Below are positions 16,987 through 20,474 of a stretch of DNA of 64,000 nt, one piece after another. The DNA comes from Polynucleobacter necessarius (lineage in GTDB: Bacteria; Pseudomonadota; Gammaproteobacteria; Burkholderiales; Burkholderiaceae). Under the pieces are notes generated by a model that did no database searches, had not been told where the DNA came from, and saw nothing but the letters and a program-made list of their open reading frames with translations. The stretch lies in the NCBI RefSeq assembly GCF_900095205.1, contig NZ_LT606951.1, positions 1,488,001-1,552,000 of the forward strand, given 5' to 3'. The translations under genes were made by a program, and so were the position numbers. Positions within the stretch are counted from its first letter, which is position 1; the number at the start of each line of letters is the position of its first letter.

Positions 16987-18604
16987 TTAATGCGATCGAA
17001 CTCGATAGAGCGCTGCAACTAATGCATCTACTTCCTGACAGGTATTGTAGAAAGCCAAAGACGGCCTCACAGTAGTTTCAACCCCCATACGACGCAGAAT
17101 TGGCTGAGCACAATGATGGCCCGACCGAACTGCAATGCCTTCTTTATTAAGTGCTGCACCGATATCCTCAGTTTTAACTCCAGGGACGACAAATGACAAA
17201 ACGCTTGCTTTATCTTTTGCAGCACCAATTAATCTTAAACCTGGCACATCCTTTAAAAGACGAGTCGCATAAAGCAAAAGTTGGTACTCATATTGATCAA
17301 TCAAATCAATACCAATAGAGCTGACATAATCCAATGCAGCACCAAGACCAACGGCATCGGCATCGGCATCGGCAATATTGCCGGTACCCGCCTCAAATCG
17401 GCTCGGTGCACCATGAAATTGAGTGTGCTCAAAGGTCACATCCTTAATCATATTTCCCCCACCCTGCCATGGTTGAGTAGCATTTAATAAATCCTCCTTG
17501 CCATAGAGCGCCCCAATATCGGTTGGTCCAAATACCTTATGCCCCGAAAATACAAACCAGTCGGGATTAAGATCTTGAAGATCAATCCTCATATAGGAAA
17601 TAGACTGGGCACCATCTAGAAGTACCTTAGCCCCTGCAGCATGAGCCAATTCAATGACCTTTTTAGCCGGAATAATTGTTCCTAAAGCATTTGAAACATG
17701 CGTAAAGCTAACCAGTTTGGCGCGGCTATTTAACAGCTTTTGATATTCATCCAAAAGCAATTGACCATCGTCATCGACTGGAATCACGCGTATACGCAGA
17801 CCTTTTTCTTTGGCTAGCAACCGCCAAGGAACGATATTTGCGTGATGCTCCAAATTACTGACGATGATTTCATCGCCCTCCCTGAGGTTTTGGCGCTCCC
17901 AACTTTGAGAGACTAAGTTAATTGCCTTGGTTGTTCCGCGCGAACAAAGACGATTTCATTTACAGATTTTGCATTAATAAAAGCCCGCACCTTTTCACGA
18001 GCACCTTCATACGCATCTGTAGCTCGCGCAGCTAATTCATGAGCAGCTCGATGAATATTGGAATTTTCATGTTCATAAAAATAGTGATTCGATCGATTAC
18101 AGATTTTGGCTTTTGTGTTGTAGCTGCATTATCGAACCAAATTAATTGTCGACCGTTAACACGCTCAGAGAGGATTGGGAAGTCCTTACGAATTAGCAAT
18201 GGATCAAAACCAGTATTACCAGTCTTTGCCACTGGGATCTGATCAGGAAATAGCTGATTAAATAACTGATCATTACCAGGGTTAGCCAAACCACTCAATA
18301 AAGAGTTTGGAATGAACTGTTCGGCCCCAAAACTTCTACCCAATGAAAGTGAACTTGGGTTCTGAGCAAGCAAATCATGGCCAGCTTGTTGCTGTACCCC
18401 TCCTAAAGCGAGTTGCGCTAATGCACCAATATCCAATCCTGCTAAAGGTTGAAATGAATGGCTAGCTACTCCACTGGGCAATCTACCCCGTGAATCACCA
18501 AGAGCCGTGGGGGTAGGCTGAGTATCAGAAAAATTCTGATTAGCCAGGTCTGCCAACACTTTGGGATCTAAGTACCCCACTTGATATTGATTACTTGTAC
18601 TCAT
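16987..18604 (-). pseudogene. Encapsulin-associated cysteine desulfurase (CyD cargo type) with long disordered N-terminus, frameshifted
   Basis: A SufS-like class V aminotransferase that removes sulfur from cysteine. The ATG at 18604 lies inside the end of the SrpI gene. About 130 low-complexity, Gln/Pro/Gly/Leu-rich residues come first, with hydrophobic patches such as LDIGALAQLALGG and NQLFPDQIP. The desulfurase domain then starts at LIRKDFPILSERVNGRQ. This extension matches what is known of desulfurases packaged in Family 2A encapsulins. The frame breaks near 18085 (DRITIF instead of [13 protein letters not shown]) and again near 17938. The rest is open: DGAQSISYMR, the PLP lysine in FVFSGHKVFGPT, and the catalytic cysteine in RSGHHCAQPILRR. 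It ends at TAA 16987. Two frameshifts make it non-functional unless corrected. Confidence 0.9.
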
Positions 18605-19507
18605 GGTATTTGCCAACCTCAACACCATCAAGTACTGCGAGAGCGTCATCTGTCAATACAGCCAAAGAGCAATACAAAGAAACTAAGTAGGAAGCAATAG
18701 CCTTGTTATTGATACCCATAAAGCGGACTGATAGGCCTAGATTTTGTTCACCCGGTAAATTTGGTTGATATAAACCAACTACGCCCTGCTTTTTCTCGCC
18801 AGATCTAATTAATAAAATAGAAGACTTTCCGTCTTGAATCTTCACTTTGTCTGAGGGAGCTAGCGGAACACCGCGCCAAGTCAAAAATTGACTGCCAAAT
18901 AGTCCAACCGTAGGGGGAGAAACGCCACGACGGGTGCACTCACGACCAAAAGCGGCAATAGCTTTGGGGTGGGCCAAGAAGAAACCAGACTCCTTCCAAA
19001 CTTTAGTCAATAGTTCATCTAAGTCATCCGGCGTTGGCGCGCCAGTTCGAGTCTTAATACGCTAATCAGGGGCAACACTTGCTAATAAACCATACTCAGC
19101 ATTATTGATTAACTCCCCCTCTTGTCGCTCCTTCGCCGTCTCTATAGTTAAACGCAACTGTTCGCTAGTTTGGTTATATGGACTGCTATATAAATCTGAA
19201 ATACGGGTATGTACATCTAATACGGTATTAACCGCGCTTAAAAAGTACTCACGTGGTGGAATCATAATCAACAAAAGTTTGAGGTAACACGCGCTCATTA
19301 TCACGACTAGAACAGTCTGTTAACACCTCAGATGGGTAATCACCTTGTTTAGGCGATAGATCCCCGCCTCAACAGGAACCCAGCCCAGCAACTGGGTTAA
19401 CCATCGAGGAGAAATCGTAGATAGTTGAGGTACGGTTTTGTTGCATTGGCTAATTACCGTGCTGCCAAATCACCTAATGCTGTTGGGCTTTGAATTACTT
19501 CTGCCAT
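18591..19507 (-). pseudogene. srpI: Family 2A encapsulin shell protein (SrpI-like), frameshifts and nonsense codons
   Basis: The shell-forming protein of a sulfur-metabolism encapsulin nanocompartment. The start is ATG 19507, with AGGAG six bases upstream. The first residues read MAEVIQSPTALGDLAAR, then TAA at 19454-19456 (CAA expected), then LANATK. The frame shifts near 19435 into TVPQLSTISPRWLTQLLGWV and PVEAGIYRLNKV. It shifts again near 19350 and near 19285, then is open through [25 protein letters not shown] at 19062-19064 follows SVAPD. The C-terminal 139 residues are open: RCTRRGVSPPTVGLFGSQF is split across ECTRRGVSPPTV and GLFGSQFLTW, followed by the shell-fold strand LGLSVRFMGINNKAIASYLV. 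Three frameshifts and two stops abolish the shell. Neighbours on both sides, SAT and CyD, are the standard partners. Confidence 0.9.
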
Positions 19508-19565
19508 AAATACTCCTGTAGTGGTTGATTAAAAAAAATAAATAAAAAAATATTGATCGAGCTGT

Positions 19566-20474
19566 TTAGTGCCCAAGTGTTTGTGCTTGAGAAATATTGC
19601 TATCTGGTGGAACGCTCTTGGTCAGCCAAACATTTCCACCAATAGTTGATCTCGCTCCAATAGTGATGCGCCCAAGCACAGTCGCACCCGCATAAATAAC
19701 AACGTCATCTTCAAGAATGGGGTGTCTATCGGCGCCTTTAATTAAGTTGCCTTCGTCATCCTCCGGAAAGCGCTTGGCACCCAAAGTAACGGCCTGATAA
19801 AGGCGGACATTCTTTCCTAAAACAGCTGTTTGTCCAATGACAACTCCTGTTCCGTGATCGATAAAAAACCCTTCATCAATCTGAGCACCTAGGTGAATAT
19901 CAACCCCAGTTCTTGAATGGGCAATTTCAGATATAAACCTAACTAAAAGTGGCGTGCCCAATTGATAAAGAGCATGCGCAATTCGATAGTGAATTACGGC
20001 ACTCACTCCAGGGTAACACAATAAGACTTCAGAAACGCTAGTAGCAGCGGGATCACCGCTCATTGCAGCTCGGATATCACTCACTATCAAAGCGCGGATA
20101 GTTGGAAGCTCAGCACTAAACTGGCCTGTAATTTTTTCAGCCAAGATATTAAAAGCAGCTTCTTCCTCGAGATTGCTACTTGAAGAAAAATATAAGCTGC
20201 GACGAACTTGTTCAGAAAGCTGCCTTAAGGCGATACTTAAAACATTGCCAACAAAGCAATCAATGCTTTCATCCGTAAGATCTGCACGTCTGTAGTGCGT
20301 TGGAAATAATGCTGCAAATAATCCCGCCAGAATGTCTTTTAAGACTTCCCCAGATGGGAGCTCTCGAACTTTTCCTAAATGACGGATCTTATGAGTTTCT
20401 TCTCTTGAACGACGTAAATCTCCAACGACTCGTGACAAGTTGAAAAAAGCGGGTACCTGCTGAAAATTAGACAT
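19566..20474 (-). CDS. Serine O-acetyltransferase (EpsC/CysE type) of the encapsulin operon
   Basis: An open 302-residue serine acetyltransferase that makes O-acetylserine, the acceptor for cysteine synthesis. The N-terminal half is helical. The C-terminal left-handed beta-helix contains the catalytic region SEIAHSRTGVDIHLGAQI, then FFIDHGTGVVIGQTAVLG and VRLYQAVTLGAKRFP. Hexapeptide repeats continue to TIGGNVWLTKSVPPDS. It is longer than minimal SATs, as usual for the EpsC group. It is the first gene of the minus-strand operon SAT-srpI-cyD; 58 bases separate it from srpI. SAT is a known neighbour of Family 2A encapsulins. It is the only intact member here, perhaps because cysteine synthesis still needs it. 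Confidence 0.88.
   Translation of the reverse strand: MSNFQQVPAFFNLSRVVGDLRRSREETHKIRHLGKVRELPSGEVLKDILAGLFAALFPTHYRRADLTDESIDCFVGNVLSIALRQLSEQVRRSLYFSSSSNLEEEAAFNILAEKITGQFSAELPTIRALIVSDIRAAMSGDPAATSVSEVLLCYPGVSAVIHYRIAHALYQLGTPLLVRFISEIAHSRTGVDIHLGAQIDEGFFIDHGTGVVIGQTAVLGKNVRLYQAVTLGAKRFPEDDEGNLIKGADRHPILEDDVVIYAGATVLGRITIGARSTIGGNVWLTKSVPPDSNISQAQTLGH

Follow-up and report, generated by a model that had tools for sequence, protein, structure and literature searches.

A broken Family 2A encapsulin operon in a Polynucleobacter genome under reduction

Introduction

This account concerns a broken encapsulin operon in a 64,000-nucleotide stretch of Polynucleobacter necessarius DNA (contig NZ_LT606951.1, positions 1,488,001 to 1,552,000), here called the window. 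The contig is a single-contig genome of 1,934,415 bases (genus Polynucleobacter, completeness 99.92%); it is designated G000, and other G numbers denote genomes compared with it. On the minus strand the window carries, in order of transcription, genes for a serine O-acetyltransferase (SAT), for the shell protein SrpI and for the cargo cysteine desulfurase CyD. An earlier reading of the letters and open reading frames (the sequence-only reading) had described these as a dying Family 2A encapsulin operon; judged from its sequence, the operon is indeed of this family, broken and pseudogenised.

According to the available parts of the respective papers, 2A shells load CyD through a disordered N-terminal domain and SrpI rises in sulfur starvation (eLife 2021, PMC8049743), while SAT and rhodanese genes are enriched in 2A encapsulin operons (Nat Commun 2021, PMC8346489). 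An accessory serine acetyltransferase is also present in the operon examined here. The role of Family 2A encapsulins is, in the literature as far as it was accessible, still argued from few organisms.

The Shell and Cargo Genes

The pieces of the shell gene match PF19307 at 3.8e-54 and 5.8e-25. Read whole through its TAG and TAA codons in a whole-genome search, the gene scores 456 bits against NF041162, the curated 2A shell profile, for which the cut-off is 380; the two largest pieces alone stay under that cut-off (256.5 and 95.3 bits). For both, the 2A profile gives a higher score than the 2B profile. Among solved structures, the best relatives of the 139-residue piece are 8t6r and 6x8m/6x8t, with Crp/Fnr regulator and nucleotide-binding chains lowest. 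The profile searches, a check of the kind that the sequence-only reading had proposed, return a Family 2A shell, and at the level of sequence this family identity is far beyond chance.

Lesions were called with a home-made frameshift-aware alignment against the open genes of relatives. Relative to the open shell gene of G184, srpI contains two stops, TAA at codon 18 (19456) and TAG at codon 150 (19064), and three frameshifts: −1 at 19441 (about codon 23), −1 at 19337 (about codon 58) and −2 at 19257 (about codon 85). A DNA alignment with five open copies reproduces all of these. Once frame-corrected, the product is 95% identical to the G184 shell over 303 residues, and carries P175S and P198S, both at positions identical in 80 of 80 copies, and I115T at a 99% conserved site. 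With five lesions in 918 bp, the shell has the highest count of 14 sulfur genes considered in G000, followed by cysA and cysT with four each. The shell gene of G109 (L089 10689-11609) begins with ATA; the other five aligned copies begin with ATG.

Both pieces of the cargo gene match NF041166, the 2A cargo profile. Relative to the CyD of G138 there are two frameshifts, −1 at 18085 (about residue 174) and +2 at 17941 (about residue 222), with which the DNA alignment agrees. The earlier counts, at least three frameshifts and two stops in the shell and two frameshifts in the cargo, were therefore exact. The cargo gene also has a 12-bp in-frame expansion, giving NIADADADAVGL where the reference reads NIADAVGL, and a substitution of GPTG to GPTD; neither is mentioned in the earlier reading. 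Counted from the MSTS start, about 137 residues precede the SufS profile, in good agreement with the extension of about 130 residues first proposed; the extension is found in relatives as well. Two motifs are given for the N-terminal domain of 2A cargo, LARLANEFFS and AASPYYFLDG (PMC8049743, in the part available). LADLANQNFS in the present CyD fits the first at seven of ten positions, by eye rather than by a statistical motif test, and the second was not seen on inspection by eye.

The frameshifts and stops of G000 srpI and cyD are common to no other copy compared. The intact shell and cargo frames of a working encapsulin are not found in G000.

Table 1. The operon and neighbouring genes in the window.
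Feature	Positions	Strand	Remarks
cyD, encapsulin cargo cysteine desulfurase pseudogene	16987..18604	-	2 frameshifts, 12-bp in-frame expansion; N-terminal extension with LADLANQNFS
srpI, Family 2A encapsulin shell pseudogene	18591..19507	-	3 frameshifts, 2 stops
SAT, EpsC-type serine O-acetyltransferase, 302 aa	19566..20474	-	open frame; G62R, P195L at invariant sites
small protein, presumably an alpha/beta hydrolase; divergent neighbour of operon	20625..21206	+	about 50% identical to G184 counterpart
sbp, sulfate ABC transporter substrate-binding protein	21635..22666	+	open frame
cysT, sulfate permease pseudogene	22814..23651	+	3 frameshifts, 1 stop
cysW, sulfate permease pseudogene	23654..24521	+	1 frameshift
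cysA, sulfate transporter ATPase pseudogene	24521..25611	+	4 frameshifts
cysB-type regulator pseudogene	25626..26560	+	1 frameshift
cysH, (P)APS reductase pseudogene	26588..27332	+	2 frameshifts
cysD, sulfate adenylyltransferase small subunit	27362..28230	+	+2 shift in last codons; 18 reference codons unmatched; weakest broken call
cysN, sulfate adenylyltransferase large subunit pseudogene	28233..29574	+	2 frameshifts
iscS, housekeeping cysteine desulfurase	34111..35367	-	intact; internal control

Distribution and Gene Order in Relatives

In a survey of 186 genomes of the genus, a shell match was found in seven, six of them above the cut-off; among 398 genomes drawn from the wider family, 111 had a match (110 above the cut-off). 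In both surveys G000 alone has stops within the match, a test blind to frameshifts that lie beyond the matched stretch. One 8.4-Mb genome of the family, G438, has a short partial shell match (75.8 bits, G438:C2:1343694-1343867), perhaps a second encapsulin relic.

The shell is open at full length in G184, G109, G138, G183 and G031; in G151 it is cut by the contig end. All five genomes keep the order SAT-srpI-cyD, with the operon beside sulfate ABC transporter genes. The cysHDN genes follow in G184, G109, G138 and G031 (in G184 and G138 the stretch takes in only part of cysN), and do not occur in the stretch of G183. Synteny in relatives, another check suggested by the sequence-only reading, together with the profile matches bears out its view of the locus as a SAT-shell-CyD operon of the 2A type. 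In four of these genomes, serving as controls, the sulfur genes are open throughout: 13/13 fully read in G184, 11/11 in G109, 10/10 in G138 and 8/8 found in full in G183. Of these four genomes, only G184 was checked for cysE, cysK and cysI, and its cysN was read in part; the cysA of G183 has a stop only near its natural end.

A CysT-type sulfate permease occurs in six of the seven genomes with a shell match and in 11 of the 179 without (Fisher P 1.5e-6), G000 being counted as positive though its cysT is fragmented and scores under the cut-off; the count would overlook broken copies in other genomes. Since the shell and permease genes are adjacent and the genomes related, the association shows that an island is inherited together and does not show a functional need. 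The transporter is kept and the operon absent in G046 and G113. The sister genome G069 lacks the whole block 16,927-26,704; next to its cysH, in place of the transporter and encapsulin block, it has a membrane protein (L125 9518-10312) which we take, from its sequence, to resemble TauE/SafE (TSUP). The distance between operon and iscS is of the same order of magnitude in G000, G109, G031, G184 and G032 (to the remnant), not in G183. A recent transfer of the operon into G000 is disfavoured by this comparable distance; on the other side, G069 has no operon and the forks of the operon tree are weak.

Extent of Gene Loss in G000

Of the 14 sulfur genes of G000, 12 carry lesions in the frameshift-aware alignment, 25 in 12,693 bp: cysT, cysW, cysA, cysB, cysH, cysD (in its last codons only), cysN, cysE, cysK, cysI, srpI and cyD. 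Only sbp and SAT are unhit. As ten further genes of sulfate assimilation are lesioned, the loss is not confined to the compartment. An in-frame TGA is found in the cysD (L133 8388-9308) of G033, a 1.7-Mb Polynucleobacter genome that may be a further reducing lineage.

Across the window, a frameshift or stop is present in 17 of the 24 genes for which G069 offers a usable counterpart (24 of 34 G069 frames; the rest had no match or weak or short ones), which agrees with the earlier description of a reducing genome. At this scale the lesion aligner was run for G069 to G000 only, G113 and G062 being checked for cys genes alone. A cruder test made without the aligner finds 13 of 22 genes broken in G000 (nine intact), one of nine in G113 and one of eight in G062; the single flag in each of the latter two is cysD, and arises from an upstream start in the G069 reference, cysD being open from its own start. 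A similar whole-stretch test against G184 frames gives as intact 7/13 in G000, 15/23 in G031, 8/15 in G032, 16/19 in G138, 17/21 in G109 and 8/9 in G183. Some of these flags are start-site effects, and those for CyD in G109, G138 and G183 come from the long G184 reference frame (CyD is open by the aligner). Coverage by open reading frames was dropped as a measure of decay, being noisy between stretches.

Stages of Decay in G031 and G032

Two further genomes show other stages of the loss. In G031, cysH, cysB, sbp, cysK, cysI and cyD are broken, and eight others are open, including the shell and SAT. Its CyD (L088 10501-12084) has a single nonsense codon, W379 to TGA, which falls after the loading domain and the lysine of SGHK (356, G138 numbering) and before the Cys of SGHHCA (494); the roles of these two residues are assumed from SufS. 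In the stretch of G032 that was read, no shell gene, SAT, cysT or cysD could be found, nor were the shell and this SAT found genome-wide. The broken genes there are cysH, cysB, cysA, cysW, cysK, cysI and cyD; cysE is open, and so is cysN, which is fused in frame to a cysH remnant. An sbp-like match is only 55% identical and frameshifted. A deletion (L115 14072-15577) joins a remnant of cysW to the last part of the CyD N-terminal region and the catalytic domain, and there is a C-terminal frameshift too. In all three genomes, iscS is open.

In a tree of 11 genomes built from a 4.8-kb isc region, G000 groups with G069 (100/100), and G031 and G032 with G184 (93/98, drawn open). Given this tree, the open shell of G031 and the absence of any operon lesion common to G000 and G031, the decay of the operon in G000 looks independent of that in G031 and G032. 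The resulting series runs from open (G184, G109, G138, G183) through broken in the cargo only (G031) and wrecked (G000) to nearly gone (G032). The "natural loss experiment" of the sequence-only reading is a fair description, to which G031 and G032 add further stages; the open, broken and nearly gone relatives form matched pairs for experiments.

The Open Frame of SAT

No frameshift or stop interrupts SAT, which had been called intact. This holds for the frame; the protein is altered at two invariant sites, P195L replacing a P present in 52 of 52 relatives whose locus gave a SAT match (52 of the 80 loci) and G62R a G present in 44 of 44. In the five relatives, no SAT change was found at any site fixed in this broad set (residue 1 left out). 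Overall, G000 has 13 lineage-specific changes in SAT, against 0-11 in the relatives.

If all 14 genes share a single lesion rate, about 2 lesions/kb, 2.6 unhit genes are expected and two are observed; the chance that SAT is unhit is P 0.17-0.21. An unhit SAT frame is thus expected by chance, and its openness needs no selection. The contrast drawn earlier, a shell and cargo dying around an intact SAT, had suggested selective retention; it gives way before this chance expectation and the invariant-site substitutions, on which grounds retention was rejected as the main account. The case calls for caution, as no more than chance is needed to predict an open SAT frame next to dead genes.

Interpretation

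Neutral gene loss running in parallel lineages, and not aimed at the compartment, very probably explains the decaying operon, which would then be an ordinary outcome of genome decay with intermediate stages preserved in relatives. In the working form, still encoded by the open relatives, and as the functions of the families suggest, the shell would have enclosed CyD via the N-terminal extension, and SAT would have fed cysteine synthesis next to the sulfate transporter. A change of life may then have supplied reduced sulfur from outside, probably from a host; G000, G031 and G032 are presumed to be host-restricted, for which the genome size and lesion load of G000 are no more than suggestive. 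Relaxed selection and, presumably, drift would have followed, with small indels and nonsense mutations destroying shell, cargo, sulfate uptake, sulfate activation, both reductases, cysK and cysE. Shell and cargo products would be absent from G000 cells, and the SAT frame would owe its openness mainly to having escaped a hit so far.

Could the frames be open in the real genome, and the lesions be faults of sequencing or assembly? Most of them are indels of 1-2 bp, and several adjoin short repeats, as such an artefact would have it. The operon's two nonsense codons and two 2-bp indels are, however, atypical of homopolymer errors, missense changes at invariant sites stand alongside the lesions, and iscS is open. 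On the same contig, rpoB is one open frame matched to its profile, and the 20 kb around it hold 15 open core-type frames (5,988 codons, 18 kb), across which about 35 lesions would be expected at the density of the sulfur genes. We take these to be ribosomal, elongation-factor, polymerase, nusG and secE genes, their names (except rpoB) and normal lengths being assumed. As these core frames are open, sequencing error is unlikely; it was rejected as the main account, and an artefact behind the whole pattern is scarcely credible. A biological alternative is that the encapsulin became useless or costly in a new niche and that its loss led the collapse of sulfate assimilation. The shell does have the most lesions of the 14 genes; nevertheless, in G031, the least decayed of the three genomes, the shell is still open while cysH, cysB, cysK, cysI and sbp are already broken, as is the cargo, and the tally of genes left unhit in G000 agrees with a single shared rate (judged without a full goodness-of-fit test). 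Loss that began with the compartment is therefore very unlikely.

Less improbable, if still unlikely, is a functional takeover, in which selection keeps the operon SAT as the sole full-length serine acetyltransferase left, shell and cargo being discarded around it. The housekeeping cysE has one +1 shift at codon 37 in G000 (L141 4012-4771) and is open in the other two reduced genomes, G031 and G032; the operon SAT, conversely, is gone from G032 and open in the other two. By this reciprocal pattern, none of the three is left without an open SAT. A PALP frame of 306/307 codons, presumably cysM by its size, is moreover open in G000, G031, G032, G069 and G184. Against a takeover stand the chance expectation for an unhit SAT and its two substitutions at invariant sites. 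In addition, the sulfide-supplying steps are broken in G000 (cysH, cysN, cysI), as is cysK; an ATG in the good frame just ahead might bypass the cysE lesion and allow a shortened product; and three genomes are too few for preferring selection.

Several points weigh against neutral loss as set out above. With sbp and the PALP gene of cysM size open, some cysteine synthesis may survive, and selection may still act on SAT. Only rpoB among the 15 control frames is profile-matched and none is aligned to a relative, and the single-lesion genes cysE, cysW, cysB, cysI, cysK and cysD could still be assembly errors. For the G000 shell, pairwise dN/dS (the ratio of nonsynonymous to synonymous divergence) is not raised, and dS to the relatives is saturated or nearly so, for which reason this measure of decay was given up. 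The lineage-specific changes are near or within the range of the relatives, for SAT as given above and for CyD with 12 against 2-21. With dS saturated and the counts near that range, the argument about constraint rests on few invariant sites.

The genes that fall with the operon are much of the pathway from sulfate to cysteine and do not include iscS, which hints at a tie to sulfate-derived sulfur. It can be proposed, tentatively and with more doubt than belief, that the Polynucleobacter 2A encapsulin is a dedicated accessory of sulfate-derived cysteine metabolism, travelling with the sulfate ABC transporter and disappearing wherever assimilatory sulfate reduction does, cargo before shell, while the Fe-S supply by IscS is untouched. 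If so, the shells made by G031 would hold inactive cargo, and this genome would represent an intermediate step of evolution at which the shell persists after its enzyme has failed.

Comparison with Known Systems

The best counterpart is the SrpI-CyD system on a plasmid of Synechococcus elongatus PCC 7942 (NC_007595; structures 6x8m/6x8t), which shares with Polynucleobacter the order SAT(epsC)-srpI-cyd and a CyD-type cargo with an N-terminal extension. The open G138 shell is 75% identical to S. elongatus SrpI over 297 residues. In S. elongatus a rhodanese gene follows cyd, and cysK is adjacent; Polynucleobacter has a sulfate ABC transporter upstream of SAT, and cysK is about 3 kb away in G184 and G031. 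Unlike the S. elongatus copy, that of G000 is broken, and the second motif of the S. elongatus CyD paper, AASPYYFLDG, is the one not seen by eye in Polynucleobacter CyD.

Pseudogene-rich genomes of ciliate-symbiotic Polynucleobacter are reportedly described by Boscaro in 2013 and 2017. Genome reduction, pseudogenes and independent origins are features of symbiotic Polynucleobacter in a review (ISME J 2024, PMC11253213), as far as its text was available. In the same portion of the review, these symbionts resemble G000 in reduced size, many pseudogenes, independent origins and drift as the proposed driver; they live in ciliates, whereas host restriction of G000, G031 and G032 is presumed. Encapsulin is not mentioned in the available portion. 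In the openly licensed literature no paper joining Polynucleobacter and encapsulin was found, and no report of a decaying encapsulin, the latter judged by title and start of abstract and thus weak evidence of absence.

Other Observations in the Window

Two further damaged genes lie in the window. A gene for sulfoacetaldehyde acetyltransferase, xsc (15662-16927), is truncated: about 4.4 kb is missing in comparison with G069, and the xsc fragment is joined to another that we take to be TctC-like. At 7905-10782, the orthologue of a 962-residue protein, presumably a molybdopterin-type oxidoreductase from its sequence, contains five frameshifts.

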